Assembly (NCBI GenBank): GCA_030745875.1
Contig: JASLNT010000106.1
Coordinates: 1-64,000 of the forward strand
DNA from: Phycisphaerae bacterium
GTDB taxonomy: Bacteria > Planctomycetota > Phycisphaerae > SM23-33
Direction of reading: 5' to 3'
DNA length: 64,000 nt
Shown here piece by piece: positions 25,328 through 39,114 of this stretch (positions are counted from its first letter, which is position 1; every line of letters starts with the position of its first letter). The notes beneath the pieces were generated by a model. It was not told the DNA's origin, did no database searches, and saw only the letters and a list, made by a program, of their open reading frames with translations. The position numbers and the translations under genes were made by a program.

Positions 25328-26116
25328 TCAGCCGGCGGCCAGTTCCTTTTTGCGACGCTCCAACTGGCCCCTTAGACGAATGAGTATCGCCGAATGCATC
25401 TGGCTGACGCGACTCTCGCTGAGGTCGAGGGTCTCGCCGATTTCCTTCATCGTCATCTCTTCGAAGTAGTACAGGATAATGATCAGGCGTTCGGCGCGGC
25501 TTAACCCTCGCGTCACAAGATCCTTGATGTCCTTCTTCTGGGCGCTCTTGAACGGGTCGTCGCTGCGCCCGTCGCGAAGAACGTCTATCTCGCGGACATC
25601 CTTGTTGCCGTCAGTCTCGTACCATTTTCGACTTAACGACACCAACCCCGTTGCATGCGCATCGCGCTGAAGCTTGTTGAAGTCCTTCATTGACAGCTTC
25701 ATGACCTTCGCCAGCTCCTTGGCGGTCGGTTTGCGGCCGAGTTGCGCCTCGAGAAGATGCGTGGCGGCGTTCAGCTTCGAAGCTCGACTTCTGACGAGCC
25801 GCGGCACCCAGTCCATGGCGCGCAGTTCATCAAGAATGGCTCCGCGCACTCTCGGGGCGCAATATGTCTCGAACTTCACGCCGCGCTCAGGATCGTAGGC
25901 CTTCAGCGCGTCCAGCAAACCAAAAACCCCCGCCGAAATCAGATCGTCCACGTCCACCTCGTCAGGCAGACGAACACGCAAACGCTCGGCCGAGTACTTC
26001 ACAATCGGTAGGTAGTTCTCCAGCAATCGGTTACGAGATTCCTCGTCTCGCTTGGCCAGGTACGTCTTCCACCATTTCTGAACTTGCTCAGGAGGCGCCT
26101 TATCAGAACGCTTCAT
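25328..26116 (-). CDS. fliA: Flagellar/motility sigma factor, sigma-28 family
   Basis: 262 residues with sigma regions 2, 3 and 4: LPIVKYSAERLRVRLPDEVDVDDLISAG (region 2), ELRAMDWVPRLVRSRA (typical of FliA/WhiG region 2.4-3), and MTMKEIGETLDLSESRVSQMHSAILIRLR (region 4 helix-turn-helix). It directs RNA polymerase to late flagellar promoters. Start ATG 26116 has AAAGGAG at good spacing; the frame is open 11 codons further but lacks a site there. It is the last gene of the flagellar block, separated from flhG by 388 bases, so it may have its own promoter. No anti-sigma FlgM is visible. Confidence 0.93.
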   Translation of the reverse strand: MKRSDKAPPEQVQKWWKTYLAKRDEESRNRLLENYLPIVKYSAERLRVRLPDEVDVDDLISAGVFGLLDALKAYDPERGVKFETYCAPRVRGAILDELRAMDWVPRLVRSRASKLNAATHLLEAQLGRKPTAKELAKVMKLSMKDFNKLQRDAHATGLVSLSRKWYETDGNKDVREIDVLRDGRSDDPFKSAQKKDIKDLVTRGLSRAERLIIILYYFEEMTMKEIGETLDLSESRVSQMHSAILIRLRGQLERRKKELAAG

Positions 26117-26504
26117 CGTACTGCTCCTTTCGCACACTTGCGTGCACATGTCCTCAGTGAGTCTCCCAGCGACCCGTAATTAGTTGTCAAATAAGATAGT
26201 ATCAATTGCACTTTCCTAACCTTGAAGCTGTGAGCACTGCCTGATCTCCGCCGACATTTAGCCCAGACAGCGCGGTGCAGACTATAGGAATCGGCAACAG
26301 CCCTGCACAAACTGCATATTTTATTTTTTTTCTCTATCTTACCTAGTTTACCCTGCCTGTGCTGTCTATCCATTCGATTGCATTGAATGCGCTTTATATT
26401 CCCTATCGGCGCGCTAATCGATCTATTTGCGCGCCATGCGCCATTTCGCAGGATCAATTGTTCCTGAATCGAATCTAGATCATTGATATTCAAGGTGTTA
26501 TGAA
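26117..26504. other. 388-base gap between flhG and fliA
   Basis: No convincing gene. The stretch is AT-richer than its surroundings, with a T-rich run near 26320-26345. It contains an inverted repeat GGCGCGC (26408-26414) and GCGCGCC (26429-26435) with a 14-base loop, about 70 bases after the flhG stop. It probably holds the flhG transcript end and a promoter for fliA, but I could not identify a clear -35/-10 pair. Confidence 0.5.
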
Positions 26505-27389
26505 TCATGCAAAAAGTCTCACCATGCGACGGAAGAAGCCTTCTTTCTGTCTTACCAAGGCTCCGCCCGGCGAGAGTTTGTTTACCAGGGCGCCAATCGC
26601 CCTGCTTGCTGGACACTTGGGATATGCCAGAACAAACGCCTGACGTCGCCTCACCGACTGCCGAACTTTCGGGTCCTCGTCGATATATCCCGCGTCGAAA
26701 ACGCGGATGTCCAGGAATCGCTTTGCAACCTCAGCCAGTCGCTGGTAGGTCGCACGTCCTTCCTGACGGTTGTCGGCCTGGTTTGTCAGCACGCTCAGGC
26801 TGCCAAGATACCCTCTGCGGGCCAGAGCCTTGATCATCCCGTAGGCGTCGGTGATTGCCGTAGGTTCGGGTGTGGTAACCACCAGAACAATGTCTGCGCC
26901 CGAGGCGAACTGGAGTACGTCCGGGCCAATCCCCGCAGCACAATCGATAATAATCAGATCGTTGTCAGCTTCGAGTTGCGTCAACTCTTCGGCCAGTCGC
27001 GTCCTCTGGAACTCGCTAAGATTCGCCAGCCTCGCCAATCCGCTTGCTCCTGCTACAAACTGCACGCCGCTGGGCAAATCCACCACCACATCCTCCAGCC
27101 GCTTCGTTCCTGCGACAACGTGTGAGATATCGCCATGGATGTCCGCGTTCAGGAGCACGTCGAGATTGGCCATTCCCATGTCCGCATCGACCAGAGCGAC
27201 CCGGTTTCCCGCGCCGGACAGGAGTATGGACAGGTTCAGCGCTACGTTGGATTTTCCCACTCCGCCTTTGCCCGAACAAACCGCGATTGTTTTGGTCAAG
27301 CGACCGGCCTGCGGAGGCGGGGGTTGGACCTTGCGGCTTTTGGGACGACTCATCATTTGTCTTAATTTGGTGGCTTGGTCTTTATGCAT
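26505..27389 (-). CDS. flhG: Flagellar number regulator FlhG (MinD-like ATPase)
   Basis: 294-residue ParA/MinD-type ATPase. The N-terminal DQATKLRQ motif (4-11) is the FlhG signature that stimulates the FlhF GTPase. The deviant Walker A CSGKGGVGKS spans 38-47, the switch DADMGMANLD follows, and LIIIDCAAG comes later. The C-terminal FFRRMVRLF resembles the amphipathic membrane-targeting helix of MinD proteins. With FlhF it sets flagellar number and placement. The start overlaps the flhF end by eight bases. Confidence 0.93.
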   Translation of the reverse strand: MHKDQATKLRQMMSRPKSRKVQPPPPQAGRLTKTIAVCSGKGGVGKSNVALNLSILLSGAGNRVALVDADMGMANLDVLLNADIHGDISHVVAGTKRLEDVVVDLPSGVQFVAGASGLARLANLSEFQRTRLAEELTQLEADNDLIIIDCAAGIGPDVLQFASGADIVLVVTTPEPTAITDAYGMIKALARRGYLGSLSVLTNQADNRQEGRATYQRLAEVAKRFLDIRVFDAGYIDEDPKVRQSVRRRQAFVLAYPKCPASRAIGALVNKLSPGGALVRQKEGFFRRMVRLFA

Positions 27390-28611
27390 TTTCTCGCCCC
27401 CCCACTATCTTCCACGCCAGATCTTCGGCGTTGGCTGGTGCAATATCGTCAGGTACTTCCTGTCCGCTGGTCACGTACGCCATCGGGCCCACATCAGCCA
27501 AAGCCATGTCCAGAAGCACTCCATACGTGGAAGCCTCGTCGAGTTTCGTAACCAGCAGTCTGTTGGCGCCGAGAGGCGCGAATCGATCGAGAATACCGCG
27601 AATGCATCTCGGGTTGGAAGCCGCCGACACCACAACGTGTATCTCGTCGGCGTCGGCGGCGTCGAGGAAGCTACGCAGTTGGCTCAACCTCAACAGGTCG
27701 TTCTGGCTTCGTCCCGTTGTATCTATCAGCACGACATCCATACCTCGTAGTGCGTATATTGCCTGGCGGAGTTCCGGGGGACTCAGCACCGTCCGCAGGG
27801 GCACTTCCACAATCTCGGCGTATGTCTGCAGTTGATCTACTGCGGCCACCCTGTAGGTGTCGATTGTGATCATTCCCACGCGCAGTCCCTGGCGGAGCTT
27901 GAAGTTGGCCGCCAGCTTTGCGATTGTCGTAGTCTTGCCCACTCCGGTGGGACCTATCAGGGCGACCACTCTGCACTGCCTGCTGTTCTTACCCACGTGT
28001 TCAGTCGGGTCGATCGTCTGGATCCGATCGGCGATTCTCTTGCACAACTCCCGCCTTACCAGCGTCTGATCGCTCTGCTGACGCCCGGTAAGGTCCATTT
28101 GCAGGCTCTCGATAAGTTCTGCTGCCACAGTATCTTTCACATCCTGGGCTAGGAGGTCTGCGTAGAATTCTCGCAGAGGCCCGTTCCCAGGCCCCGCTGA
28201 TCCGGCCTGGCCGAGCAGGGTGCGTATCATCTGCTTGAGATCGGACACCTCTCCGGCCAGGTGCGCAGTTCCACCGCCCCCGCCTGGCGACACCGCCGCC
28301 ATTTGCTCCAGTGCAATCGCCGCCGGGGTCTTGGGCTTCTCGGGGACGTTGGCTTGGGGTTCCTCGACAAGCGGATCGTCGGAGCGTTCGAGCGGGAGTT
28401 CGGTAACGTATTGTCCCTGCTTGTCGTCTCCGGCCAGATCCGCAGCCGGGCATGCGGTGATCTCCCACATCGCCTTTCCGCCGATCAATCCCAGGAACCC
28501 GCCCTTGCGGTAGCTGCGGGTTCTTAGTATCACCGCGTCGCGACCGAGGTCGTGTTTGACCTCGCCCAGGACGTTCGCCATTGTGTCGGCATGGTAGGTT
28601 CGTTCGGTCAT
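27382..28611 (-). CDS. flhF: Flagellar SRP-type GTPase FlhF
   Basis: 409 residues. A variable N-terminal domain (RTYHADTMANVLGEVKHDLG, typical of FlhF) is followed by a helical linker and the SRP GTPase NG domain, with P-loop GPTGVGKTTTIAKLA near 220, DTYRVAAVDQLQTYA, IDTTGRS and the guanine-specificity TKLDEA. FlhF marks the site of flagellum assembly. It overlaps flhA by four bases and flhG by eight, so the three are probably translationally coupled. Confidence 0.93.
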   Translation of the reverse strand: MTERTYHADTMANVLGEVKHDLGRDAVILRTRSYRKGGFLGLIGGKAMWEITACPAADLAGDDKQGQYVTELPLERSDDPLVEEPQANVPEKPKTPAAIALEQMAAVSPGGGGGTAHLAGEVSDLKQMIRTLLGQAGSAGPGNGPLREFYADLLAQDVKDTVAAELIESLQMDLTGRQQSDQTLVRRELCKRIADRIQTIDPTEHVGKNSRQCRVVALIGPTGVGKTTTIAKLAANFKLRQGLRVGMITIDTYRVAAVDQLQTYAEIVEVPLRTVLSPPELRQAIYALRGMDVVLIDTTGRSQNDLLRLSQLRSFLDAADADEIHVVVSAASNPRCIRGILDRFAPLGANRLLVTKLDEASTYGVLLDMALADVGPMAYVTSGQEVPDDIAPANAEDLAWKIVGGRENA

Positions 28612-30719
28612 AGGTCAATCCCTACATGTTCGAGACTCTGAACCTCAACTGATTCGATTTCGTTATATCCCAGTACGGCTGCGTCGGGATCGCTTGTGCG
28701 CAACATCTGCTTTACGTGCAATCGCACGTCCGGTCCGCAAAGCACCACGGCGCGGCGGCCGGATTGCCTGAGGCGTTCCAGGGCGTCGCTGACGGCGCCG
28801 GATATCTGTGCGGTAAGTTCCGGTCCGGCGGTCATTACAATTCCGTCCGGCCCGCGCGTCACGTGCTCCTGCAGGGCGCTTTCAGTTTGCGCCGCGAGGC
28901 TCACGCACCACAACTTCCCGTCCTGAGAGCAGTACTGACGACTCAGCGACATGCCAAGATCGGCGCGAACGTGCTCGCAGAGAATCTCGGGGCAGGTGGT
29001 CTGGGACGCCCGTTCGCACAAACTCTCCAGGATGGACTCCAGGTCGCGAATGGAGACCCGCTCGGCCAGGAGATGACTGAGCACCTTGTGTATCACGTAC
29101 GCGGGCAGTTTCTCAGCGACCTCGTCTACGAGCCCCTGGTCGCGTTGCCCTACGGCCTGCAGCATCTCGGTAACGTGTCTCCTCGAAAGCAGTCTCGGAG
29201 CGTTGTCGCCAATCACCTTTTCCAGGTGATTCATCAGGACATTAACCGGAGCAATCACGGTGTATCCCATCTGTTGTGCTCTGGCCTGTTGGGGCTCGGT
29301 GATCCAGACGGCGTGGCATCCGCTGGCCGGGTCGATGGTCTCCCGCCCGATGAGTTTCCCGGCGGTCGTCCCTTCAGCCACCGCCAGCATCTGCGCCGGA
29401 TATATCCTCCCCTGAGCCGCCGCAACCCCCCGTATGTGCATTGCGTAATTGTGGGCTCCCAGGCGCATGTTGTCGCGAACCACTACCGGAGGCACGAGCA
29501 GGCCCAACTCCAGTCCTATACGACGCCTGAGAGAGGCTATTTCATTAAGCAGATCGTTCTCGGATGAATCGTCCAGAAGACGGACCAGCGCGTAACCAAT
29601 TTCAATCCGCAGCGGATCCACCGATACGAGATCTGCAACGTCTACATCCGCCGACTCGCCTGGAGATCTCCCGTCACCGACGGTCCCATCATCTTGTGAG
29701 TCCTGTAGTTCCTGCTGTTTGCGTGAAAGCATCCAGGCCAGGCCCGCACACCCCAAACCCAGGATTACCAAAGGAGCTTTCGGCAAGGCCGTCAGCGTTA
29801 ACGCCGACAGGAACACCGCCGTTATCCCCAGAACGACCGGACGTGCTGTCAGTTGCGCGACAACTTCTTCACCGAGATTCGTTCGAGCCGTGTTGCGCGA
29901 AACAAGCAACGCCGCCGATATCGATATCAGGAATGCGGGAATCTGCGTCACCAGTCCGTCTCCCACGGTCAGTCGCGTAAAGACGTCGGCGGTTTCGGCG
30001 GCGCCCCACCCGTACTGGATCATTCCCACGTAGAACCCGCCGAGCACGTTAACAACGGTGATGATCATTGCCGCCAACGCATCGCCCCGAATGAACTTCG
30101 AGGCGCCGTCCATAGCTCCGTAGAAGTCCGCCCTGTTCGACACCTCTTCGCGTCGGGCTCGAGCCTCGTCTTTTTCGATCAGCCCCGCGTTGAGATCCGA
30201 GTCGATCGCCATCTGCTTACCGGGCATAGCGTCCAGAACGAATCTCGCGGCCACTTCGCTTATCCGCGCGGCGCCTTTGGTTACAACGACAAACTGGATG
30301 ACCACGAGGATAACAAACAGAATCACTCCAACAGCCAGCGAGCCGGAAGTTACAAAGGAGCTGAACGCATAGATAACGCCTCCGGCCGCATGCGCCGCAT
30401 GGTCCGGCCCGCCGCCGTCGGCTCCGGCGGTGAGAATTAATCTGGTTGTCGCGACATTAAGTACAAGGCGGAACAGCGTCGCCCCAAGCAGCAGCGACGG
30501 GAATACGTTGAATTCGAGCGGGCTGCGTACGTGGATCGTCGTAAGCAATATCACCGCCGCCAAAGCGATATTCATCGCCAGGAAAATGTCGATCAACAGC
30601 GGCGGGATCGGAACCAGGATGACGAATATCAGCGCAGCGGCGCCCACGGGCAGGATCAGACCGCGATGGCGGCTGATGAATCTGCCTGTAGCCTCAAATG
30701 TCGCTGAAAGTTCACTCAC
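28608..30719 (-). CDS. flhA: Flagellar export gate protein FlhA
   Basis: 703 residues, normal length. Eight membrane segments fill the N-terminal half, with the family signature loop around RISEVAARFVLDAMPGKQM and AIDSDLNAGLI. The large cytoplasmic domain (about 370-703) forms the nonameric ring that docks chaperone-substrate complexes. It is the major component of the flagellar type III export gate with FlhB and FliPQR. Start and stop overlap flhB and flhF by four bases each. Confidence 0.96.
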   Translation of the reverse strand: MSELSATFEATGRFISRHRGLILPVGAAALIFVILVPIPPLLIDIFLAMNIALAAVILLTTIHVRSPLEFNVFPSLLLGATLFRLVLNVATTRLILTAGADGGGPDHAAHAAGGVIYAFSSFVTSGSLAVGVILFVILVVIQFVVVTKGAARISEVAARFVLDAMPGKQMAIDSDLNAGLIEKDEARARREEVSNRADFYGAMDGASKFIRGDALAAMIITVVNVLGGFYVGMIQYGWGAAETADVFTRLTVGDGLVTQIPAFLISISAALLVSRNTARTNLGEEVVAQLTARPVVLGITAVFLSALTLTALPKAPLVILGLGCAGLAWMLSRKQQELQDSQDDGTVGDGRSPGESADVDVADLVSVDPLRIEIGYALVRLLDDSSENDLLNEIASLRRRIGLELGLLVPPVVVRDNMRLGAHNYAMHIRGVAAAQGRIYPAQMLAVAEGTTAGKLIGRETIDPASGCHAVWITEPQQARAQQMGYTVIAPVNVLMNHLEKVIGDNAPRLLSRRHVTEMLQAVGQRDQGLVDEVAEKLPAYVIHKVLSHLLAERVSIRDLESILESLCERASQTTCPEILCEHVRADLGMSLSRQYCSQDGKLWCVSLAAQTESALQEHVTRGPDGIVMTAGPELTAQISGAVSDALERLRQSGRRAVVLCGPDVRLHVKQMLRTSDPDAAVLGYNEIESVEVQSLEHVGIDL

Positions 30720-31510
30720 GATTCATCTCCCGATCCCGTCTGACCGGTCTTCATTTCCGCCTGGCGGGCTCTGCGGCGTCTGGATCGCATTAACGGGTCG
30801 CCTTCGGTCTTCCGCAGGTCTTCGAGTACTTCCCTGCGGGTCATCATCAGGTCCCGTCGATGCCTGCGCCACTGATACAACCAGTCGATCCCGCCCAGCA
30901 CCGCCAGCACAAGCAGGATTCTCCAGGCCATCCGGCCCAGCATCGCCCATGCGCCAATCCACTGCCGCTCGACGCCGAATCCGCACGCCAACGCAATTTC
31001 CGGAAGCAGTTGATCGATAGTCATCCACGCGACAAATCCGACCGCTGCAATCTTGGTCAGCGCCAGCATCGCCCCCGCCAAACCGCGCGATGAGAAGATC
31101 CGCTTGAGCCCCTGACCGGGGGATAGCCTGTCCAGGCGCGGTTTGGCGACTTCCTCGCTGACATGCAAACCAACCTGAGCAATACCCGCCAGCGCAGCGA
31201 CCAGCACCATCAGGGCGCAGAAACACACCGTAATCCATGTCACAGGCCCAGCAGCCGACCACAACGCCGACCCGGCTGCGGTCCCTACATCGGGCGTGCT
31301 GCGCTCGAAGCTGAGCATACTGTCGAACATTTTGGTGAGCTCTCGCAGCAACACCTCGCCGCCCAGCCAAAACGCAACCACCGCCGCCAAGATGACCGCC
31401 ACACCGGTGAGGTCGGCGCTTCTGGCGACCTGCCCCCGCCGCCTGGCCTCAGCCAGCCTCAGCACTGTGGGCTGCTCGGTTCGTTGGTCTGTATCGCTTC
31501 GTGTCGCCAT
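30716..31510 (-). CDS. flhB: FlhB export-gate protein lacking the self-cleaving C-domain
   Basis: 264 residues against roughly 350-380 in typical FlhB. The transmembrane half is clear: QRTEQPTVLRLAEARRRGQV (like TEKPTPKKLxxARxxGQV), LSPGQGLKRIFSSRGL, and the linker start EVLEDLRKTEGDPLMRSR (228-243). It ends 24 residues after GDPL, where other FlhB proteins continue to the NPTH autocleavage site about 35 residues on. The stop codon overlaps the flhA ATG by four bases, so this is an established gene end and not an obvious sequencing break. The substrate-specificity-switch domain must be supplied by another protein or be dispensable. Confidence 0.9.
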   Translation of the reverse strand: MATRSDTDQRTEQPTVLRLAEARRRGQVARSADLTGVAVILAAVVAFWLGGEVLLRELTKMFDSMLSFERSTPDVGTAAGSALWSAAGPVTWITVCFCALMVLVAALAGIAQVGLHVSEEVAKPRLDRLSPGQGLKRIFSSRGLAGAMLALTKIAAVGFVAWMTIDQLLPEIALACGFGVERQWIGAWAMLGRMAWRILLVLAVLGGIDWLYQWRRHRRDLMMTRREVLEDLRKTEGDPLMRSRRRRARQAEMKTGQTGSGDES

Positions 31511-31521
31511 CTATCTTTAAC

Positions 31522-32295
31522 CTACTGTCCAGGCGCCAGGACCTGTCCGATCGAATCCAGGATTATCTCCGTGCCTGTTTCCACCACCGCCGCCAGCGTA
31601 ACCAATGCGCCCGCCAGCACGATCAGCGTCAGTATCGCCCGCACGGGAAGGGCCATCGAAAGAATGTGAAACTGCGGAACAGATCGCTGGAGCATTCCCA
31701 TGGCGATCCCCGCAAGCAGCAGCGTAATAAGCACCGGAGCAGCCACTTTCAGCGCCAGCACAAAACTGACGGCTGTAAGTGAGATCATCGTCTCGAACAC
31801 TCCCGGGCTCGGGGTCATACCGGCCAGCGGTACGACGCTGAATGTTTTGAGCACGGCCGATATCACCGACCGATGCCCTCCGATCCCAAGAAACACAACT
31901 ATCGCAAGCAGACTGAAGAACCGCCGCATCACTCCAGGGGCCGACGGACTGACCGGGTTGAACATCTCGCCCAACGACAATCCCATCTGCGAGGCGATGT
32001 GGTAGGCTCCCAGTTCCACGCCGACAAACACCAGCCCCGCAGTCCAGCCAATCGCCACACCGATGAGCAACTCGCCGCCAAGAGCGACCAGAAGCCCGCC
32101 CGTCCCGCCTGCAATCGCAACCGGCTGGCCGAGGCGACCTGTCACCGCGACCGCCGCCGCAACGGCCAGAAAATAACGCAGCTTCATCGGTACGGTGGTG
32201 TGGCTGAATACGGGACTCACCGCAAACATACCGCCCAGCCGCACCAGCACTAGCAGCAGCGTAAGATTCCAGGTTGTCAGTGCGGTGTATTCCAC
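31522..32295 (-). CDS. fliR: Flagellar export gate protein FliR
   Basis: 257 residues, several hydrophobic helices. The family signatures LLVLVRLGGMFAVSPVFS near the start and GELLIGVAIGWTAGLVFVGVELGA, then QMGLSLGEMFNP, are visible. FliR forms the export channel core with FliP and FliQ. It follows fliQ by 15 bases and is followed by flhB after 11, in the conserved order fliP-fliQ-fliR-flhB-flhA. Confidence 0.93.
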   Translation of the reverse strand: MEYTALTTWNLTLLLVLVRLGGMFAVSPVFSHTTVPMKLRYFLAVAAAVAVTGRLGQPVAIAGGTGGLLVALGGELLIGVAIGWTAGLVFVGVELGAYHIASQMGLSLGEMFNPVSPSAPGVMRRFFSLLAIVVFLGIGGHRSVISAVLKTFSVVPLAGMTPSPGVFETMISLTAVSFVLALKVAAPVLITLLLAGIAMGMLQRSVPQFHILSMALPVRAILTLIVLAGALVTLAAVVETGTEIILDSIGQVLAPGQ

Positions 32296-32310: not shown

Positions 32311-32571
32311 TTATGGCAGGGAGCACGTGAACATCTCCCGACCGAACTCAACAAGTTTCGACAGCATCCACGGAGCCGTGATCGCAAACGCCAACAACAT
32401 CGCGAGTATTCTGGGCACGAGGCCCAACGTCTGATCCTGAACCTGCGTGACGGCCTGGAGCACGCTCACCACAAGCGCCGTAATCAAGCCCGTGACCAAC
32501 ACGGGCAGAGACAGGAAGATCAGCAACATGATCGCCTGTCTGGCAAGTTCAATTCCTTGATCAGCGTTCAT
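32311..32571 (-). CDS. fliQ: Flagellar export gate protein FliQ
   Basis: 86-residue protein with two transmembrane helices. The conserved VTGLITALVVSVLQAVTQVQDQTLGLVPRILAM region is plain by eye and the length matches FliQ. It forms part of the FliPQR export channel. It starts three bases after the fliP stop. Confidence 0.95.
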   Translation of the reverse strand: MNADQGIELARQAIMLLIFLSLPVLVTGLITALVVSVLQAVTQVQDQTLGLVPRILAMLLAFAITAPWMLSKLVEFGREMFTCSLP

Positions 32572-32574
32572 CAG

Positions 32575-33348
32575 TTATCCAAAGCTCTTCATTAATGTCC
32601 CGACAACCAGATGCCATCCGTCAGCCAGCACGAACAGCAGCAGTTTGAACGGCAGCGAAATCAGCGACGGAGGAAGCATCAGCATTCCCATCGACACCAG
32701 GAAAGTCGCCACCAGCATGTCAATCACCAGGAAAGGCAGGAAGATTCTGAATCCCATCCAGAATGCGACCTTTAGTTCGCTGACCACAAACGCGGGTATC
32801 AGCGACACCGTCGGCACGTCCTTCCACACCAGATTCTCCCTGGCCGCAATGTCGTCGCTCAGAAACAGATATACGTCCGAACTGTTTCCGGCGGCTTGAA
32901 TCTGCGTGGTCATGAACTCTCGAATATGCGTTTCACCGGCGGACACCGCGTCGTTCCTGCTGACCTTACCGTCGAGATACGGGCTGATCGCATCCTTGTG
33001 GACTTTGTTGTATGTCGGAGCCATCACCACCGCGGTCATCAGCAGCGACAATCCGAAGATCACCTGGTTCGGAGGCAACTGCGCCGACCCGAGAGCCTGC
33101 CTGAGCAGCCCGAGCACGACAACTATTCGCGTGAAACACGTAACCATAACCAGCAGCGCCGGAGCCACTGACAGAACCGTAACCATCACCACCCACGTGA
33201 TAACCGTACCGGACCCGCCGGGAGTTTCGATATTGGGCAACGACTTCACCAGTCCGCCCGGTCCGCCGGCGGGAGCCTGGGCGGCGGGGGCAACCGCAGA
33301 AATCATCAGCACTATCAGTGCAACTGAGATAATCCGGGAGGTCTTCAT
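32575..33348 (-). CDS. fliP: Flagellar export gate protein FliP
   Basis: 257 residues. A cleavable N-terminal signal (VALIVLMISAVAPAAQA) is usual for FliP. Signatures: FTRIVVVLGLLRQALGSAQLPPNQVI, then PTYNKVHKDAISPY, PAFVVSELKVAFWMGFRIFLPFLVIDM and MGMLMLPPSLISLPFKLLLFVLADGW. Five FliP copies form the core of the export channel. The ATG overlaps the fliO stop by four bases. Confidence 0.96.
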   Translation of the reverse strand: MKTSRIISVALIVLMISAVAPAAQAPAGGPGGLVKSLPNIETPGGSGTVITWVVMVTVLSVAPALLVMVTCFTRIVVVLGLLRQALGSAQLPPNQVIFGLSLLMTAVVMAPTYNKVHKDAISPYLDGKVSRNDAVSAGETHIREFMTTQIQAAGNSSDVYLFLSDDIAARENLVWKDVPTVSLIPAFVVSELKVAFWMGFRIFLPFLVIDMLVATFLVSMGMLMLPPSLISLPFKLLLFVLADGWHLVVGTLMKSFG

Positions 33349-33890
33349 GCATCGCCCTCCCGATTGGCTGCGTTGTCAACGGCCTTCTTCAGACCGACTT
33401 TGCAGGCGGCTTCGATAAGCGCCGCCGCCTCATCAGCATCCGTGACCTCGCTAAGCGTAGTCAGCGACGCGGGCCCCTGCCCGACCAGCACGACACGGCG
33501 TCCCATCCTCACCAGCAACAGTTGATGCCGCGCCGAAACACTCGTCCTGGCCAGCACATCAAGCATATCTCGTCTCTGCGGACCGGATATCGGACCGAAA
33601 CGCTTGAGCATTACTCTGGCCAGGAAGATCAACACAACAACCAGCGCCAGCGCCCCCAGCGTACGTCCCCACTGAGTCCACGGACTTTGCGGTCCGGAAT
33701 CGACTTTCTTACCTTCGGACGGACCAACCAGGCGTTCGGACACACCCGACTGGCGACCTGTTTCGCCCTGCTGCGTGGTCGGCTGGGTGGTGGGCTGCGA
33801 AGTTGCCCGAGAGGCCTGACCCCGCGCAGAAGCGCACAGCACAACCGCTATGATCAGCGGCGTGGCGAGATATTTCAGCGTCGTTGTCAT
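33345..33890 (-). CDS. fliO: FliO-like flagellar biosynthesis protein
   Basis: 181 residues. A signal-like N-terminus (about 1-25) is followed by a Ser/Thr/Gln-rich linker, one transmembrane helix (TLGALALVVVLIFLARVML, about 90-108), and a small cytoplasmic domain with DMLDVLARTSVSARHQLLLVRMGRRVVLVGQ, the usual FliO core. FliO assists assembly of the FliP ring. Its position directly before fliP and after fliN supports the call; sequence conservation of this family is low. Confidence 0.82.
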   Translation of the reverse strand: MTTTLKYLATPLIIAVVLCASARGQASRATSQPTTQPTTQQGETGRQSGVSERLVGPSEGKKVDSGPQSPWTQWGRTLGALALVVVLIFLARVMLKRFGPISGPQRRDMLDVLARTSVSARHQLLLVRMGRRVVLVGQGPASLTTLSEVTDADEAAALIEAACKVGLKKAVDNAANREGDA

Positions 33891-34133
33891 CTATTCGGTC
33901 TTGTCGCCTTGTGTGTCCGTGGGTAGAAGTTCGGATACTTCAACGCCCAGTTTTCCGTCCACAACCACAGCATGGCCGCGTGCGATGAGGCGGCTGTCGA
34001 AGTAGACCTGTACGTCCGGGTCGCCGCGCGTGTCGAGCTGAACAGTTGAGCCGACCGCCAATTCAGGCACCTCGTCCTGCCACAACCACGTCCTGCCGAC
34101 TTCCACTCTCAATGGCGGCGTGCTAGTAAACAT
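33891..34133 (-). CDS. fliN: Short FliN-type SpoA-domain rotor protein
   Basis: 80 residues that amount to a single SpoA (FliM/FliN C-terminal) domain: VEVGRTWLWQDEVPELAVGSTVQLDT and VYFDSRLIARGHAVVVDGKLGVEV. E. coli FliN is about 137 residues, so there is no N-terminal extension. It would form the lower C-ring and bind FliH of the export ATPase complex. ATG 34133 has GGAG seven bases upstream, inside the end of fliJ (overlap 11 bases). No fliM is in the window. Confidence 0.82.
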   Translation of the reverse strand: MFTSTPPLRVEVGRTWLWQDEVPELAVGSTVQLDTRGDPDVQVYFDSRLIARGHAVVVDGKLGVEVSELLPTDTQGDKTE

Positions 34134-34602
34134 CCGGATGCTCCAATAACTCGTAAGATTCGCCGGGGCGGACCTGGCGGCCTGAACCGACTTGTTTATC
34201 GATCTCCGCAGCGCGTCGCAGCGCGATCATCCGAACAAGCCTGCGGTGATATTGATCGGCGGATTTCCTGGCCCGGTGGGCCTCAAGCAGCACGGCTTCA
34301 CACTGCAGCAACGCTCTGTTCTGCATCTGTTTTTCGTCTTCGAGACGCGACAGTTCCTTGCGAATATCCGCTGTTCTGCGTGCGTACTGGCCTAGCAGTC
34401 CAGCTGTTCCGCCAGCCAGCAGTTCATCTCTAGCGGCCGCGTCGTATTGACCCAATGTTTGGTTAAGGGCGGCTATCCGAGTCTCGATCGCCTGCAGGCG
34501 ACATAGGGTGCCAGCCTGACTTCTCCGGGCGACATTCTCGTCGTGCATACGCATTCTCAAGAGCACGCGACTTCGTTTTGTGGTTCTGGTGTCGTTCATC
34601 AT
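34123..34602 (-). CDS. fliJ: FliJ-like flagellar export protein
   Basis: 159 residues, almost wholly charged alpha-helix, as in the FliJ coiled coil that inserts into the FliI hexamer. The N-terminus (RSRVLLRMRMHDENVARRSQ) and the repeated arginine/leucine heptads fit. The call rests mainly on position (straight after fliI, before fliN), size and coiled-coil character, since the family is poorly conserved. Tandem ATG starts at 34602/34599 abut the fliI stop. Confidence 0.75.
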   Translation of the reverse strand: MMNDTRTTKRSRVLLRMRMHDENVARRSQAGTLCRLQAIETRIAALNQTLGQYDAAARDELLAGGTAGLLGQYARRTADIRKELSRLEDEKQMQNRALLQCEAVLLEAHRARKSADQYHRRLVRMIALRRAAEIDKQVGSGRQVRPGESYELLEHPDVY

Positions 34603-35970
34603 CTACCCGTGCAGGGTCATCTCCGGTATTTGCTCATCGGTCTGTTCAATTTCACCGCCGACCCGGCGGCAGAGTTCCAGCAGGGCCTCAACGGTTTTGG
34701 GAAGTTGCATTTCCGGATTGTCGAAAGCGTCCTGGGCGGTGAATTCCCGCACCAGCGGAATGGCTTCTACGGCGGTGTCAAACTGGCGGGAGTTGCCTTT
34801 TCGGTAGGCCCCTATATTGACCATGTCTTCAATTTCGCGATAAAGAGCGCCCACTCGCCTGATCTTACCGGCCGCTTCGATGTGCTCAGCGCCGGTCACC
34901 TCGCCCATGACTCGCGAGATGCTCTCCAGAAAATCGATAGCCGGAAACTCTCCGCGATTCGCCATCTCCGCCGACAGCACGACGTGTCCGTCAGCAACGG
35001 ACCGCACTGCATCGCTGATCGGTCCGGCAGTGTCGGGCCCTTCGGTCAGGACCGAGTAGAATCCGGTTATGGATCCGGCGTCGGTTCGTCCGACACGTTC
35101 GAGTAATTCGGGCAGCAGGCCGAAGACGCTTGGCGTGTATCCGCCCGCCGTCGGCGGTTCGCCCGCGACGAGACCGATCTGCCGCTGGGCGGTCGCCAGA
35201 CGCGTCAGCGAGTCCATGACGAGCACTACGTTTTTGCCCGCGTCGCGGAAGTACTCGGCTATGCAGGTGGCGACAGCTCCGGCCTGGACGCGAACGAGCG
35301 GAGGCTGGTCACTGGTTGACGCGACAACTACGGCTCGTTTGAGGCCTTCCTGTCCGAGTTCCTTTTCAACGAAGTCGCGGACCTCGCGTCCGCGCTCGCC
35401 TATGAGCGCTATTACGACCACGTCGGCGTCGCAGTAGCGGCTGATCATTCCCATCAGCACGCTCTTGCCCGCCCCTGACGGGGAGAAAATCCCCATACGC
35501 TGCCCGCGTCCCACGGTCAACATCGAATCGATCGCCCGCACGCCGGTCACCAGAGGTTCGGATATCCGCCTCCGCAACATCGGCGAGATCGGCTCGGGCC
35601 AGAGGGGCATGTGAACCTCGGGCGTAAGGTCGCTGAGCCCGTCGATGGGCCTGGCCATCCCGTCGACCACGCGTCCGAGCATCTGGTCTCCCACGGGTAC
35701 GGTCGGCTGGCCGTCGGTGCATTCAACGCGATCTCCGCGACAGATGCCGACCGTCGAGCCCAGCGGCATGACGAGGGTCAACTCGCCCGAAAACCCGATA
35801 ACGCGTGCGGCGAGTGCGCTGTGTCCGCGAGTGATTCTGCAACCGGCTCCCACGGGCGCGGGGAAATCTCCGACGGCGACCGTCAGACCGCGGACGGAGA
35901 CCACCTGCCCGGTCACACTGACCGGTTGCACCTGCGAAAGCATCTGTCTGTATCGATCAAGTGGAGACAT
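34603..35970 (-). CDS. fliI: Flagellum-specific ATPase FliI
   Basis: 455 residues from ATG 35970 (a TTG three codons upstream is also open). F1-ATPase beta-like type III secretion ATPase: P-loop SPSGAGKSVLMG near 163, RVVDGMARPIDG, IALIGERGREVRDFVEKELG, VLVMDSLTRLATAQRQIGL and EPPTAGGYTPSVFGLLPELLERVGR. It drives export together with FliH and FliJ. The N-terminus overlaps the end of fliH by about 14 bases. Confidence 0.96.
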   Translation of the reverse strand: MSPLDRYRQMLSQVQPVSVTGQVVSVRGLTVAVGDFPAPVGAGCRITRGHSALAARVIGFSGELTLVMPLGSTVGICRGDRVECTDGQPTVPVGDQMLGRVVDGMARPIDGLSDLTPEVHMPLWPEPISPMLRRRISEPLVTGVRAIDSMLTVGRGQRMGIFSPSGAGKSVLMGMISRYCDADVVVIALIGERGREVRDFVEKELGQEGLKRAVVVASTSDQPPLVRVQAGAVATCIAEYFRDAGKNVVLVMDSLTRLATAQRQIGLVAGEPPTAGGYTPSVFGLLPELLERVGRTDAGSITGFYSVLTEGPDTAGPISDAVRSVADGHVVLSAEMANRGEFPAIDFLESISRVMGEVTGAEHIEAAGKIRRVGALYREIEDMVNIGAYRKGNSRQFDTAVEAIPLVREFTAQDAFDNPEMQLPKTVEALLELCRRVGGEIEQTDEQIPEMTLHG

Positions 35971-36733
35971 CGCTGTCAATGATCCTCAGATGTGGAACCG
36001 GTTCGTACTTTCCGGAGACCTCGGGCGATCCGAACGGACCGCCGGCGGTAAGCGCCGAAGCGACTTTGTCCAACTGTGTTTCGACGGTGGCGTCAATCAC
36101 GCCGCGAGCGGTTGTTATCTTCACACCGCCCGGAGCCACTTGTCGATCGGCGACAAGTCTGGCCCGGGCCGAGGCGTCGATAACCTCCACGAACTCCGCA
36201 AAATCGCTTGAAAGGGCCTGCAGTTGAAGGGGATTCACCGCGACGATTATCTCGCCCTCGGCGTGGGCGAGCCTCATCGCCTTGATGAGATTTGTCCTGG
36301 CTACGGATATATCGGTCCGAGCCAACCGCCCGACAATCTTGGATGAAAGATCAAGCGCGAAGTTCAGCACCTCGTCGGCGGCGAACTGATAGGGCCTATC
36401 GCCTGCTTCATCGAGCGTCGCCAGAATCGCCCCGGCGACATCCGCCAACTGCTTCGACTCGCCGGCGATACTCGCTCGGGCCTGATCACCGCCTTCACGA
36501 GCCCCATCTGTCAAACCCTGCTTCCGACCTTCTGCAAAGCCTGCGTCGTATCCCTGCTTGCGGGCCTGCCGTTTGGCCAGTTCGACGTTGGCGCGTGCTT
36601 CAGCCTTGATTTTCGCGGCCGTTTTGCGGGCGTCGAGTATCAGCGCGTTGGCTTGGGCGGCGATGTCGGTGAGTTTCATCACGGGTCTGTCGTCACTGGG
36701 AACGCGCCTTGCTTTCTTGATAATCCGGGTCAT
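35957..36733 (-). CDS. fliH: FliH-like export ATPase regulator
   Basis: 258 residues. The N-terminal half is a long charged helix (ALILDARKTAAKIKAEARANVELAKRQA split by Gly/Ala patterns such as GYDAGFAEGRKQG, typical of FliH). The C-terminal half has the FliH/V-ATPase-E-like pattern ALDLSSKIVGRLARTDI and SARARLVADRQVAPGGVKITTARGVIDATVETQLDK. It links FliI to FliN. Start ATG overlaps the fliF-fliG stop by four bases. Confidence 0.88.
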   Translation of the reverse strand: MTRIIKKARRVPSDDRPVMKLTDIAAQANALILDARKTAAKIKAEARANVELAKRQARKQGYDAGFAEGRKQGLTDGAREGGDQARASIAGESKQLADVAGAILATLDEAGDRPYQFAADEVLNFALDLSSKIVGRLARTDISVARTNLIKAMRLAHAEGEIIVAVNPLQLQALSSDFAEFVEVIDASARARLVADRQVAPGGVKITTARGVIDATVETQLDKVASALTAGGPFGSPEVSGKYEPVPHLRIIDSDVST

Positions 36734-38532
36734 ACTGCTTCCTCCACGGCCTGACCGCAGGCGGCCTGGCTTACGATCTCAATCACGCGCTGGCGAGCGG
36801 ATTCGACATCGCATATGCGCATCGGGCCTATCCGATCCATTCTGGCCCGGACGTACTCGGCGTCCTTAGGCGACAGGCATCCCAGCACTTTCCGCCTGAC
36901 CTGTCTGGCGGCCATTCGAAGTGAAATTGCAAGGTCATCGGGTTCGACCGCGCCGAGAACAACGCGAAGCTCACCAGCGCCCAGATGGGTTATGTCTTCA
37001 AAGGCCATCAACTTCAGCGCGTCCCGCTCGGCCCGCCGACGATTGATGTTCTCGGTTTCCGCGAGTTGACCGGACAGACCGCCCGACGGACCGTCCAGAC
37101 GCCTGGCCAGATCTCGATTAATCTCGGCGACGATTTCCGCATCGGCGTCACTGAGATCGCCCATCCTTCTGGCGACTTCCGCACGGAGTTCCGCCGGCAG
37201 ACGGGAGATGATCTCCGCAGCCTGGCCCGAGGGCATACGAACGAGGATCAACGCCAGAGTCTGCGGATGCTCCCGCCCGAGGTCTTCGTCACGACCATCG
37301 TCGCCATCGTCCGAGAAGGGAGCCAGCATGTCGTAGCTGAGTTCATTGTGAGCTTCGTCGTCCGGCGTCGAACCGTCCCCACCGGGCGTTGGATGAACTG
37401 ATCTTCGCCATCGCAAAAGCACCCACGCCCCCAACGCGCCGACAAATACAGCCCCTGCGATCGCAGCGAAGACTATGCCCCCGCCTACGCCGCTGTGTGT
37501 TTCCATAAGGTCCGAACCGGACTTGGCGATAATCGGACCGTGCAAAGCAACGGTTACCTCGTGGCTGCCGGTGGGCCCCAGAATCGCCCTGACCGCATCC
37601 TTAACCGACGCCAACTGCTGAGCCGCGGATTCCTTGCTGCCAGCCGACGAGACATAACTCTTGGGAATCGACACCCATACTCTAAGCCCGTCACCGGCGA
37701 TCCGATATCCGCCGGATGCGTGTTTCAGTCCGGCCCGGGCTCCGATAATCTGCACGTCGGCGGACATTCCCGGAATGTAACGCAACGCCGACACGATCTT
37801 CTCGCTGTAATACGCCTCAACCGTATGACGTTGAGCAAACGATTGAGCGTCAGACGACGGTCGATAGCTCCGACCGGTCTGATCGATCACGCGAACATCG
37901 CCGATCTCCACGGCGACGCTTCCGGAAATCAACTCTCCAATGGCGACTATCAGGCCCGGAGACATTCGGCGCCCTTTAGCAAGCCTTACTGTCACGGCCG
38001 CTCTTGCCGCCTGCGCTTTTGAACCAAGCCCGCCCGGAGATCCCGGTTCGAAGAATACTGACGCCGATGCGATAGGATCCATCTCGGATATCAGGCGTCC
38101 GAGTTCGGCCATCACGCCGGCTTGCCATAGACGGCGGTTTTCGGCGCTGCTGCGCCACATGCTTAGACCGCCAGCCAGTCGCCGCAAGCCCGAGCCGGAA
38201 GATCCGCCGTCCGGAATATCGGAGCGTAGAATATTTCGAGCATCGCCCAGATGCTGCGGGGATACGGTGAGCCCGCCTTCTGTACGGCCGACGCGGATAC
38301 CCTCTCGCTCGAGAGCGGCAGCCGCACGCTCGCGGGCCTCGCCGTCCAGATTGCGAGCGATCACAGTTGTCGGCTCGGGGGTAATCACCGCCCAAACCAA
38401 CCACACCGCCCCGCCCAAGACAACGGCTGCAAGCAGAGCAGCGGTTAATCGCGCACCGGCGCCCAGGCCTGCCAGACGAACTCTCAGACGAACTACATGT
38501 CGCTTCAACCTCTTCACATCCCGGTCCTCCAT
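36730..38532 (-). CDS. fliF: FliF-FliG fusion: MS-ring protein joined to rotor switch protein
   Basis: One 600-residue frame with two normally separate proteins. FliF part: TM1 28-50, ring-building motifs 55-225 (ALEREGIRVGRTEGGLTV, DARNILRSDIPDGG, ENRRLWQAGVMAELGRLI, ARAAVTVRLAKGRRMSP), a reduced RBM3 region about 235-335, and TM2 351-374. After an acidic linker (385-418) comes a FliG part: EHPQT at 421-425, IISRLPAELRAEVARRMG, and the C-terminal torque domain about 505-595 (MAFEDI, RIGPMR, DVESARQRVIEI). FliG's N-terminal domain, which normally binds FliF's tail, is missing, as expected if fusion replaces that contact. The residues matching E. coli FliG D288/D289 are Ala563/Arg564. No separate fliG is in the window. 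First motor gene of the operon. Confidence 0.9.
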   Translation of the reverse strand: MEDRDVKRLKRHVVRLRVRLAGLGAGARLTAALLAAVVLGGAVWLVWAVITPEPTTVIARNLDGEARERAAAALEREGIRVGRTEGGLTVSPQHLGDARNILRSDIPDGGSSGSGLRRLAGGLSMWRSSAENRRLWQAGVMAELGRLISEMDPIASASVFFEPGSPGGLGSKAQAARAAVTVRLAKGRRMSPGLIVAIGELISGSVAVEIGDVRVIDQTGRSYRPSSDAQSFAQRHTVEAYYSEKIVSALRYIPGMSADVQIIGARAGLKHASGGYRIAGDGLRVWVSIPKSYVSSAGSKESAAQQLASVKDAVRAILGPTGSHEVTVALHGPIIAKSGSDLMETHSGVGGGIVFAAIAGAVFVGALGAWVLLRWRRSVHPTPGGDGSTPDDEAHNELSYDMLAPFSDDGDDGRDEDLGREHPQTLALILVRMPSGQAAEIISRLPAELRAEVARRMGDLSDADAEIVAEINRDLARRLDGPSGGLSGQLAETENINRRRAERDALKLMAFEDITHLGAGELRVVLGAVEPDDLAISLRMAARQVRRKVLGCLSPKDAEYVRARMDRIGPMRICDVESARQRVIEIVSQAACGQAVEEAV

Positions 38533-38571: not shown

Positions 38572-39078
38572 CTAATCGGCATCTAGCTTTGCATAGTACT
38601 CCCGGATATGCGCCAACGATTTGTGCTGAGCCTTCAACGCAATGATGCCGTTGAGACGCGCGAATACCGACTCATCGTACAGGCGGTGCCCACCGTCGGT
38701 CCGCCGCGCCTCAATGAGCAGGCCCATAGTCGTGTAGTTGTGAACGGTCTGGCGGCTCAGACCCGAATACTCAATCACCTCACCGATACGATACAGCTTC
38801 GGCGGGATTTCAATTGGCTTGGGCTCGGTAAACCGATTTCCGATCCCTGCGCGTCCCGATCCGGAGCCTGTTTGATTTGGGGAGTCTGAAGAAGGTGGAG
38901 CGTCTCGCGGACCTGCAACATCTTCTGAGCGTCCCGCACTAGATTCGTGCGGAGAGCGTGCTGCACAAGTTACATCCGCGGCGGCGCTTGGTGCGATTAC
39001 CGCATCCGCAACGCCCGAGGCCTCCACTGCACTTGCAGCATCTGTCACATCGCGTTTTTCGAATACACTTGTTTGCAT
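38572..39078 (-). CDS. MerR-like DNA-binding regulator heading the flagellar operon
   Basis: 168 residues. About 90 residues of low-complexity Ala/Ser/Pro-rich sequence precede a MerR-type winged helix (about 92-165): KLYRIGEVIEYSGLSRQTVHNYTTMGLLIEARRTDGGHRLYDE, shown here only as the hallmark order of helix-turn-helix and wing. There is no C-terminal effector domain. It ends 39 bases before fliF-fliG on the same strand and is probably the first gene of the flagellar transcript. A regulator of motility is a reasonable inference. Start ATG 39078 has no good ribosome site. Confidence 0.75.
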   Translation of the reverse strand: MQTSVFEKRDVTDAASAVEASGVADAVIAPSAAADVTCAARSPHESSAGRSEDVAGPRDAPPSSDSPNQTGSGSGRAGIGNRFTEPKPIEIPPKLYRIGEVIEYSGLSRQTVHNYTTMGLLIEARRTDGGHRLYDESVFARLNGIIALKAQHKSLAHIREYYAKLDAD

Positions 39079-39114
39079 AGTAAAAAGATACTTTATATTT
39101 TACAAAAGGTAGCT

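Follow-up and report, generated by a model that had tools for sequence, protein, structure and literature searches.

Why would an export gate of the flagellar type keep an FlhB that stops just ahead of the site at which this protein is cleaved elsewhere? In Salmonella, autocleavage of FlhB occurs at N269-P270 in its C-domain, which is required for the early-to-late switch (PMC7911332). We address this question for a locus in a Phycisphaerae metagenome-assembled genome (MAG), lying in a window of 64,000 nucleotides (contig JASLNT010000106.1), by which we mean the whole stretch of DNA analysed. The locus was compared across 60 relatives and the window's own genome (G000; the family of the window is f1). 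The group of Planctomycetota-class bacteria studied here is known from environmental DNA.

Gene content of the cluster

In the sense of transcription (minus strand), the cluster runs merR, fliF-fliG fusion, fliH, fliI, fliJ-like, fliN, fliO, fliP, fliQ, fliR, flhB, flhA, flhF, flhG, sigma. Its features are:

39091..39107 (-), conserved motif TTTTGTAAAATATAAAG upstream of merR, probable operator/promoter element (pattern scan)
38572..39078 (-), merR-type HTH gene, conserved cluster neighbour (MerR_1, 47.2 bits)
36730..38532 (-), fliF-fliG fusion, 600 aa, without FliG N domain and with the third ring-building region shortened (profiles, model)
35957..36733 (-), fliH (FliH, 56.8 bits)
34603..35979 (-), fliI export ATPase (ATP-synt_ab, 270.5 bits; T3SS_ATPase_C)
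34123..34602 (-), fliJ-like, named by position (FliJ, 17.9 bits, below cut-off)
33891..34133 (-), 80-aa FliN/SpoA protein, fliN (FliMN_C, 48.3 bits)
33345..33890 (-), fliO (FliO, 39.2 bits)
32575..33348 (-), fliP (FliP, 237.1 bits)
32311..32571 (-), fliQ (Bac_export_3, 87.5 bits)
31522..32295 (-), fliR (Bac_export_1, 165.4 bits)
30716..31510 (-), flhB without the autocleaving C-domain, 264 aa (Bac_export_2, 194 bits)
28608..30719 (-), flhA, complete with cytoplasmic domain (FHIPEP, 747 bits; aligns along FlhA structures)
27382..28611 (-), flhF, SRP-type GTPase (SRP54, 126.3 bits)
26505..27389 (-), flhG, MinD-like ATPase (AAA_31, CbiA, ParA)
25328..26149 (-), FliA/WhiG-like sigma factor (Sigma70 r2, r3, r4)

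A profile search of the cluster genes found no rod, hook or filament genes in the window cluster, and secretin or needle genes were likewise absent among the cluster genes scanned. The FliF-FliG fusion comprises the domains YscJ_FliF (residues 55-222), FliG_M (419-481) and FliG_C (507-590). In its AlphaFold model (mean pLDDT 73, pTM 0.32), residues 129-334 align to residues 125-438 of Salmonella FliF (7bk0_B, Z 13.8, rmsd 6.3, 195 aligned), so that about 100 residues of Salmonella FliF would be missing from the fusion; we take the missing region to be the one in which the beta-collar lies.

The merR gene stands upstream of fliFG in all 15 loci inspected. With one mismatch allowed, its motif turned up in 15 of 16 genomes, most matches lying at the locus of the cluster, and the motif read backwards as a control gives about equal or more matches in G000, G001, G023, G025 and G031. 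A merR-motif regulon, considered as a route to the cargo, was set aside because the motif is mostly confined to the cluster itself. We also rejected a sigma factor dedicated to the cluster: 56 of the 60 relatives match it at E<=1e-20, including some without the export gate, and genomes with no Bac_export_2 match at all (e.g. G005, G014, G021, G041, G047, G050, G059) carry orthologues. The role of this sigma factor seems to be wider than flagella. In several loci, dapF directly follows the sigma gene, and an 88-aa ORF between flhG and sigma in L033 has a counterpart in none of the loci searched.

The end of flhB

Translation of flhB starts at an ATG. The protein covers positions 2-238 of 335 of Bac_export_2 in a Pfam profile search, FlhB structures align with its residues 2-252 (e.g. 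36hu chain K1, 383 aa), and profile and structure alignment agree that the membrane domain and linker helix of the FlhB/SctU family (PF01312) are present. The C-terminal autocleaving domain with NPTH, a feature of the same family, is absent. As a first-pass annotation had read from the letters, the gene ends 24 residues after GDPL (residues 237-240), short of NPTH, and its stop codon (30716-30718) has four bases in common with the GTG start of flhA (30719). We calibrated the expected site on full-length FlhBs of the class: an anchor motif in the membrane-proximal helix could be located in 18 of 21, and in these the N of NPTH lies 49 residues past it. The anchor motif of the window FlhB is at residue 221, which puts the expected N at residue 270, six residues beyond the C-terminal end at 264. 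Scores of 164.1 bits for TIGR00328 (flhB, cut-off 349) and 166.7 bits for TIGR01404 (SctU, cut-off 358) both lie below the equivalog cut-offs and bring no decision between flhB and SctU.

A frameshift or assembly error at the flhB end can be dismissed with near certainty, because 13 other complete flhB genes of the family have the same short end, and this conservation excludes a sequencing error. Furthermore, the three forward frames read immediately past flhB contain nothing that resembles NPTH, and G001 has the identical four-base overlap with flhA.

Conservation of the short FlhB

The loss of the autocleavage and switch domain that the first-pass annotation had proposed is thus real and conserved. 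Complete short FlhBs of 245-272 aa occur in 14 genomes including the window's own, all of family f1; in G003 and G007 the short FlhB was seen in part (contig edge; masked bases). That annotation had also named a second full-length flhB in the genome as a finding that would refute its reading, and relatives do show this: eight f1 genomes (G002, G007, G011, G012, G018, G027, G029, G031), of which G002 belongs to the same genus as the window's strain, additionally encode a full-length FlhB on another contig, in a flagellar operon of its own. The window's own MAG, with an assembly 89.5% complete, has a single Bac_export_2 match over the cut-off. In G025 and G019, which are nested in the f1 short clade, the C-domain is kept and NPTH is replaced.

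Beyond f1, a short FlhB, of 249 aa, occurs in G147 (family f8) together with separate fliF and fliG genes, while family f7 (G042, G051, G060) and genus g187 of family f22 (G251, G302, G328) have a C-domain without NPTH. G042 has merR and the FliF-FliG fusion in common with f1, so the systems of f7 and f1 may be one and the same. For f22, the loci of G251 and G328 were read, and both keep the gate and have no fliF; the FlhBs of G170 and G125 are too divergent for a sound judgement. A scan of genome contigs returned 47 loci. Ten of them have a short FlhB, all in Phycisphaerae or Planctomycetota MAG records overlapping relatives already counted, and the other 37, many of them from Bradyrhizobium and other Alphaproteobacteria, keep NPx[H/E].

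Several variants of the locus were observed alongside. Still smaller gate clusters without fliF are present in L080 and L084 (genus g187) and in L082 (G170), whose genomes measure about 2 Mb and gave neither rod nor flagellin matches over the cut-off; the FlhB of G170 is barely recognisable. Six loci (L040, L043, L044, L049, L050, L079) have no fliH/fliI between the FliF-FliG fusion and fliO and are apparently an ATPase-less branch of the system, with a small ORF of 120-161 aa at the fliH/fliI position in L040, L044, L049 and L050. Among flagellar FlhBs (L026, L028, L048, L095, L097, L099, L116, L118), the cleavage motif has the natural variants NPTE, NPEH, NPQH, NPSH and NPVH, and G052 with an NPTE FlhB still carries rod and flagellin genes.

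Search for a separate FlhB C-domain

An FhlB/YlqH protein, a paralogue of FlhB-C, would supply the domain missing here, and the first-pass annotation had suggested that such a protein works in trans. G008 provides an example: at L051 7641-9916, an FhlB of 102 aa comes after a fliK-like gene of 655 aa, and this genome also carries a full-length FlhB. A search with an FlhB-C profile at E<=10 in 14 genomes retrieved the positive controls, namely the FhlB of G008 (96.6 bits) and the full-length FlhBs of G002 and G035, as well as the degenerate C-domains of G042 (56 bits) and G251 (38 bits). In G000, G001, G026 and G032 the profile matched only the stub of the short FlhB; G147 gave the stub and one 11-bit match, and G006, G020 and G170 gave no match. 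A full-family search of the window's own genome (E<=10) yielded, as second match, 13 bits in the N-terminal region, which is noise. Neither search turned up an FhlB/YlqH that could act in trans, be it in the window's genome or in the other genomes screened that have only a short FlhB, and we rejected this proposal.

Rod, hook, filament and FliK genes

Genomes with only an NPTH-less FlhB are mostly without rod/hook, flagellin and FliK genes, whereas the tested NPTx-FlhB genomes have all of these. Neither rod nor flagellin was over the cut-off in any of the nine NPTH-less genomes outside f1 (G042, G051, G060, G251, G302, G328, G170, G147, G125) or in five of the eight short-only f1 genomes (G001, G006, G020, G026, G032). 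In six NPTx controls, and in G178, which is counted with them although a contig end truncates its FlhB, the search gave 5-6 rod and 3-5 flagellin matches per genome (E<=0.1). FliK was over the cut-off in all 11 genomes with an NPTx-type FlhB and in none of the 15 without, four of which have weak sub-threshold matches; no FliK was found in the window's own MAG.

Axial or filament genes do accompany a short FlhB in G003 (five rod genes, one flagellin), in G023 (two of each) and in the window's own, incomplete MAG, which has one flagellin and one rod/hook match of 17.6 bits, below the cut-off. Contig C5 of this MAG (L085 427-3995) carries flagellin, FliD-like and FliS-like genes that begin right at the contig edge; similarity and position gave fliD and fliS their names. 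FliC and FliD of this contig have their closest counterparts in the second, F-type flagellum of G002 (65 and 63%), which has its own full-length FlhB. The bin would then lack the remainder of a second flagellar cluster, unless C5 is a contaminant.

Does the short FlhB then belong to a working flagellum, with FlhB-C in trans or some other kind of switch? The C5 genes, in a MAG with no other FlhB, and the axial genes of G003 and G023, where the short FlhB is the only one, favour such a reading; the window's own genome lacks both an FlhB-C in trans and FliK, and the nearest relatives of the C5 proteins work with a full-length FlhB, and we consider it very improbable. We read the axial and filament genes of G003, G023 and G000 as incompletely assembled second flagella. 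Because of the flagellin, FliD-like and FliS-like genes on C5, a full-length flhB in the window's own strain is likely but unproven.

Descent of the cluster

Outside f1, the operon fliN-O-P-Q-R-flhB-flhA-flhF-flhG-sigma has a full-length FlhB, with NPTH or NPTE, in 12 of 12 loci (L088-L099). The sister family f2 has a native flagellar operon of the same gene order, with an NPTH-bearing FlhB, and the window proteins are closest to f2 (FlhA 52-54%, FlhG 56-58%, sigma 66-68%). The full-length flagella of f1 are a different lineage, with FlhA 36-39% to the window, and no flhF/flhG was found alongside their operons.

In a tree of five proteins from 44 loci, which includes no injectisome sequences and has support values from FastTree, the f1 short clade groups with f2 (SH 1.0), apart from the f1 flagella. 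Monophyly of the short clade has an SH value of 0.656, and in the FlhA-only tree the clade is not firmly placed with f2. G147 groups with the flagellate G052 (SH 0.875; 0.996 in FlhA) and stands, with weak support, beside the f1 short clade in the FlhB-only tree. Synteny and phylogeny place the window cluster in the flagellar T3SS lineage by descent: judged by gene order and trees, it goes back to the flagellar export operon that is native to the class. With G025 and G019 nested in the short clade, deletion of the C-domain would therefore have happened more than once, if the lost domain was never regained. That the switch works differently here, the other proposal of the first-pass annotation, presumed the flagellum's own FlhB; synteny, tree and gene content point instead to a second, filament-less export system, with nothing to switch.

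Selection on the cluster genes

Nei-Gojobori dN/dS ratios were 0.07-0.20 for nine cluster genes between G026 and G032, and 0.06-0.25 for six genes between G000 and G001, dS values of about 0.7-1.1 making the ratios approximate. By this measure, the cluster genes are under purifying selection. This speaks against a mere remnant of a lost flagellum that is still decaying, as do reading frames and gene order intact in many genera and the FliF-FliG fusion and merR gene kept through the clade. In favour of such a relic, many genomes no longer have rod, hook, filament and FliK genes, and some lineages lost FliHI, FlhFG or FliF from the locus; even so, we regard decay as improbable.

Alternatively, the apparatus may no longer export, with FliF-FliG and FlhF/FlhG acting as a polar mark or division-site regulator and the gate proteins as a scaffold. 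This fits the retention of FlhF and FlhG in most loci and the case of Campylobacter jejuni, in which FlhG regulates the division site with MS-ring and switch proteins, and FlhG and motor/switch components inhibit polar division (PMC3228812). However, the gate is invariant and the pole proteins are not: G023, G031, G025 and G019 are without FlhF/FlhG in the cluster and keep FliPQR-FlhB-FlhA, and G251 and G328 keep the gate though FliF is absent from the locus. A pole mark thus appears unlikely.

Discussion

The window cluster is probably a non-flagellar, filament-less type III export apparatus that arose from the class's native flagellar export operon, and may be regarded as a putative exporter. 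Our comparisons document conservation, synteny, parallel losses, missing partner genes and purifying selection; export in late mode into the periplasm, and decay of NPTH before deletion of the C-domain as the order of events, are what we infer. The lineage would have ceased to assemble rod, hook and filament with this apparatus, and therefore FliK and the FlhB C-domain (substrate-class switch, rod/hook docking site) would no longer have been needed. NPTH would then have decayed, and the C-domain would have been deleted thereafter; G025 and G019, with a C-domain but no NPTH, are possible intermediates inside the clade. The remaining machine, a gate of FliPQR, FlhB(TM) and FlhA, usually with the ATPase, the FliF-FliG fusion ring and FlhF/FlhG, would have been kept by selection. 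Such an exporter would accept only FlhA-docked 'late-type' cargo and transport it constitutively across the inner membrane.

A Salmonella mutant of the same shape, together with the loss of early-mode structures, leads us to suggest this constitutive late-mode, FlhA-docked export into the periplasm. According to a 2026 preprint (PMC13060781), truncation of FlhB by a stop at codon 258, or removal of its CCD, in flk-null Salmonella without the rod-hook genes allows late secretion into the periplasm without FliK, and the early substrate FlgE is not exported in those CCD-less strains. The preprint also reports that good late secretion without the CCD needed overexpression of the apparatus, and that FlhB without CCD seems poorly assembled; a short-loop deletion in the FlhB C-domain abolishes secretion in Salmonella (PMC3640470). 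Poor assembly and the secretion-less short-loop deletion count against the export reading. Further points against our reading are the axial and filament genes of G003, G023 and the window's MAG, the modest support for the short clade together with the loose placement of its FlhA, and a sigma factor that does not serve the cluster exclusively.

With the flagellar type III export apparatus, the window system has the gate proteins, ATPase complex, FlhF/FlhG and operon order in common. It differs in the absence of the FlhB C-domain, in the fusion of FliF and FliG with a reduced periplasmic part, and in being without rod, hook, filament and FliK, and thus lacks the rod/hook and FliK features of a hook- and filament-building flagellum. 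Nearest in working is the needleless NF-T3SS of Myxococcales ('Myxo' group of Abby and Rocha; T3SS* of M. xanthus), compared here by its published description. PMC3459982 and PMC12075869 describe it as a gate with ATPase and inner ring, with no secretin, needle or flagellar axial proteins, and a long-conserved gene order. Unlike the Myxo system, the window cluster descends by synteny from the flagellar operon of its own host class and has mostly kept FlhF/FlhG. The Salmonella flhB-deltaCCD and codon-258-stop proteins likewise end just before the cleavage site, with a predicted loss of early-substrate docking. In contrast to these laboratory mutants, the window FlhB is natural, conserved across genera and coupled to the loss of rod, hook and FliK.

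In Abby and Rocha (2012), NF-T3SS are listed in Chlamydiae, Proteobacteria and Verrucomicrobia only; for the window's phylum, flagella and no non-flagellar T3SS are reported there. Our search of the open-access literature (Planctomycetes/Phycisphaerae FlhB, non-flagellar T3SS), with subscription papers outside its scope, found no published account of this system. Tentatively, we put forward that it could be a further independent kind of type III secretion, in which a flagellar gate became a stand-alone inner-membrane exporter more than once within one class, locked in late mode by loss of the FlhB switch domain, with one ATPase-less branch and with FlhF/FlhG positioning a FliF-FliG ring minus most of the collar.

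Conclusion

In these bacteria, nature has repeatedly run an experiment on the flagellar specificity switch. Separate lineages without rod/hook, filament and FliK have lost either the cleavage site of FlhB or its entire C-domain, and the gate stays. This agrees with the proposal that the cleaved domain provides docking for early substrates and holds the early mode, and is dispensable for the gate as such. The system would add a filament-less secretion system to a phylum without a reported non-flagellar T3SS, and would show that a flagellum can turn into a secretion system without an injectisome stage.
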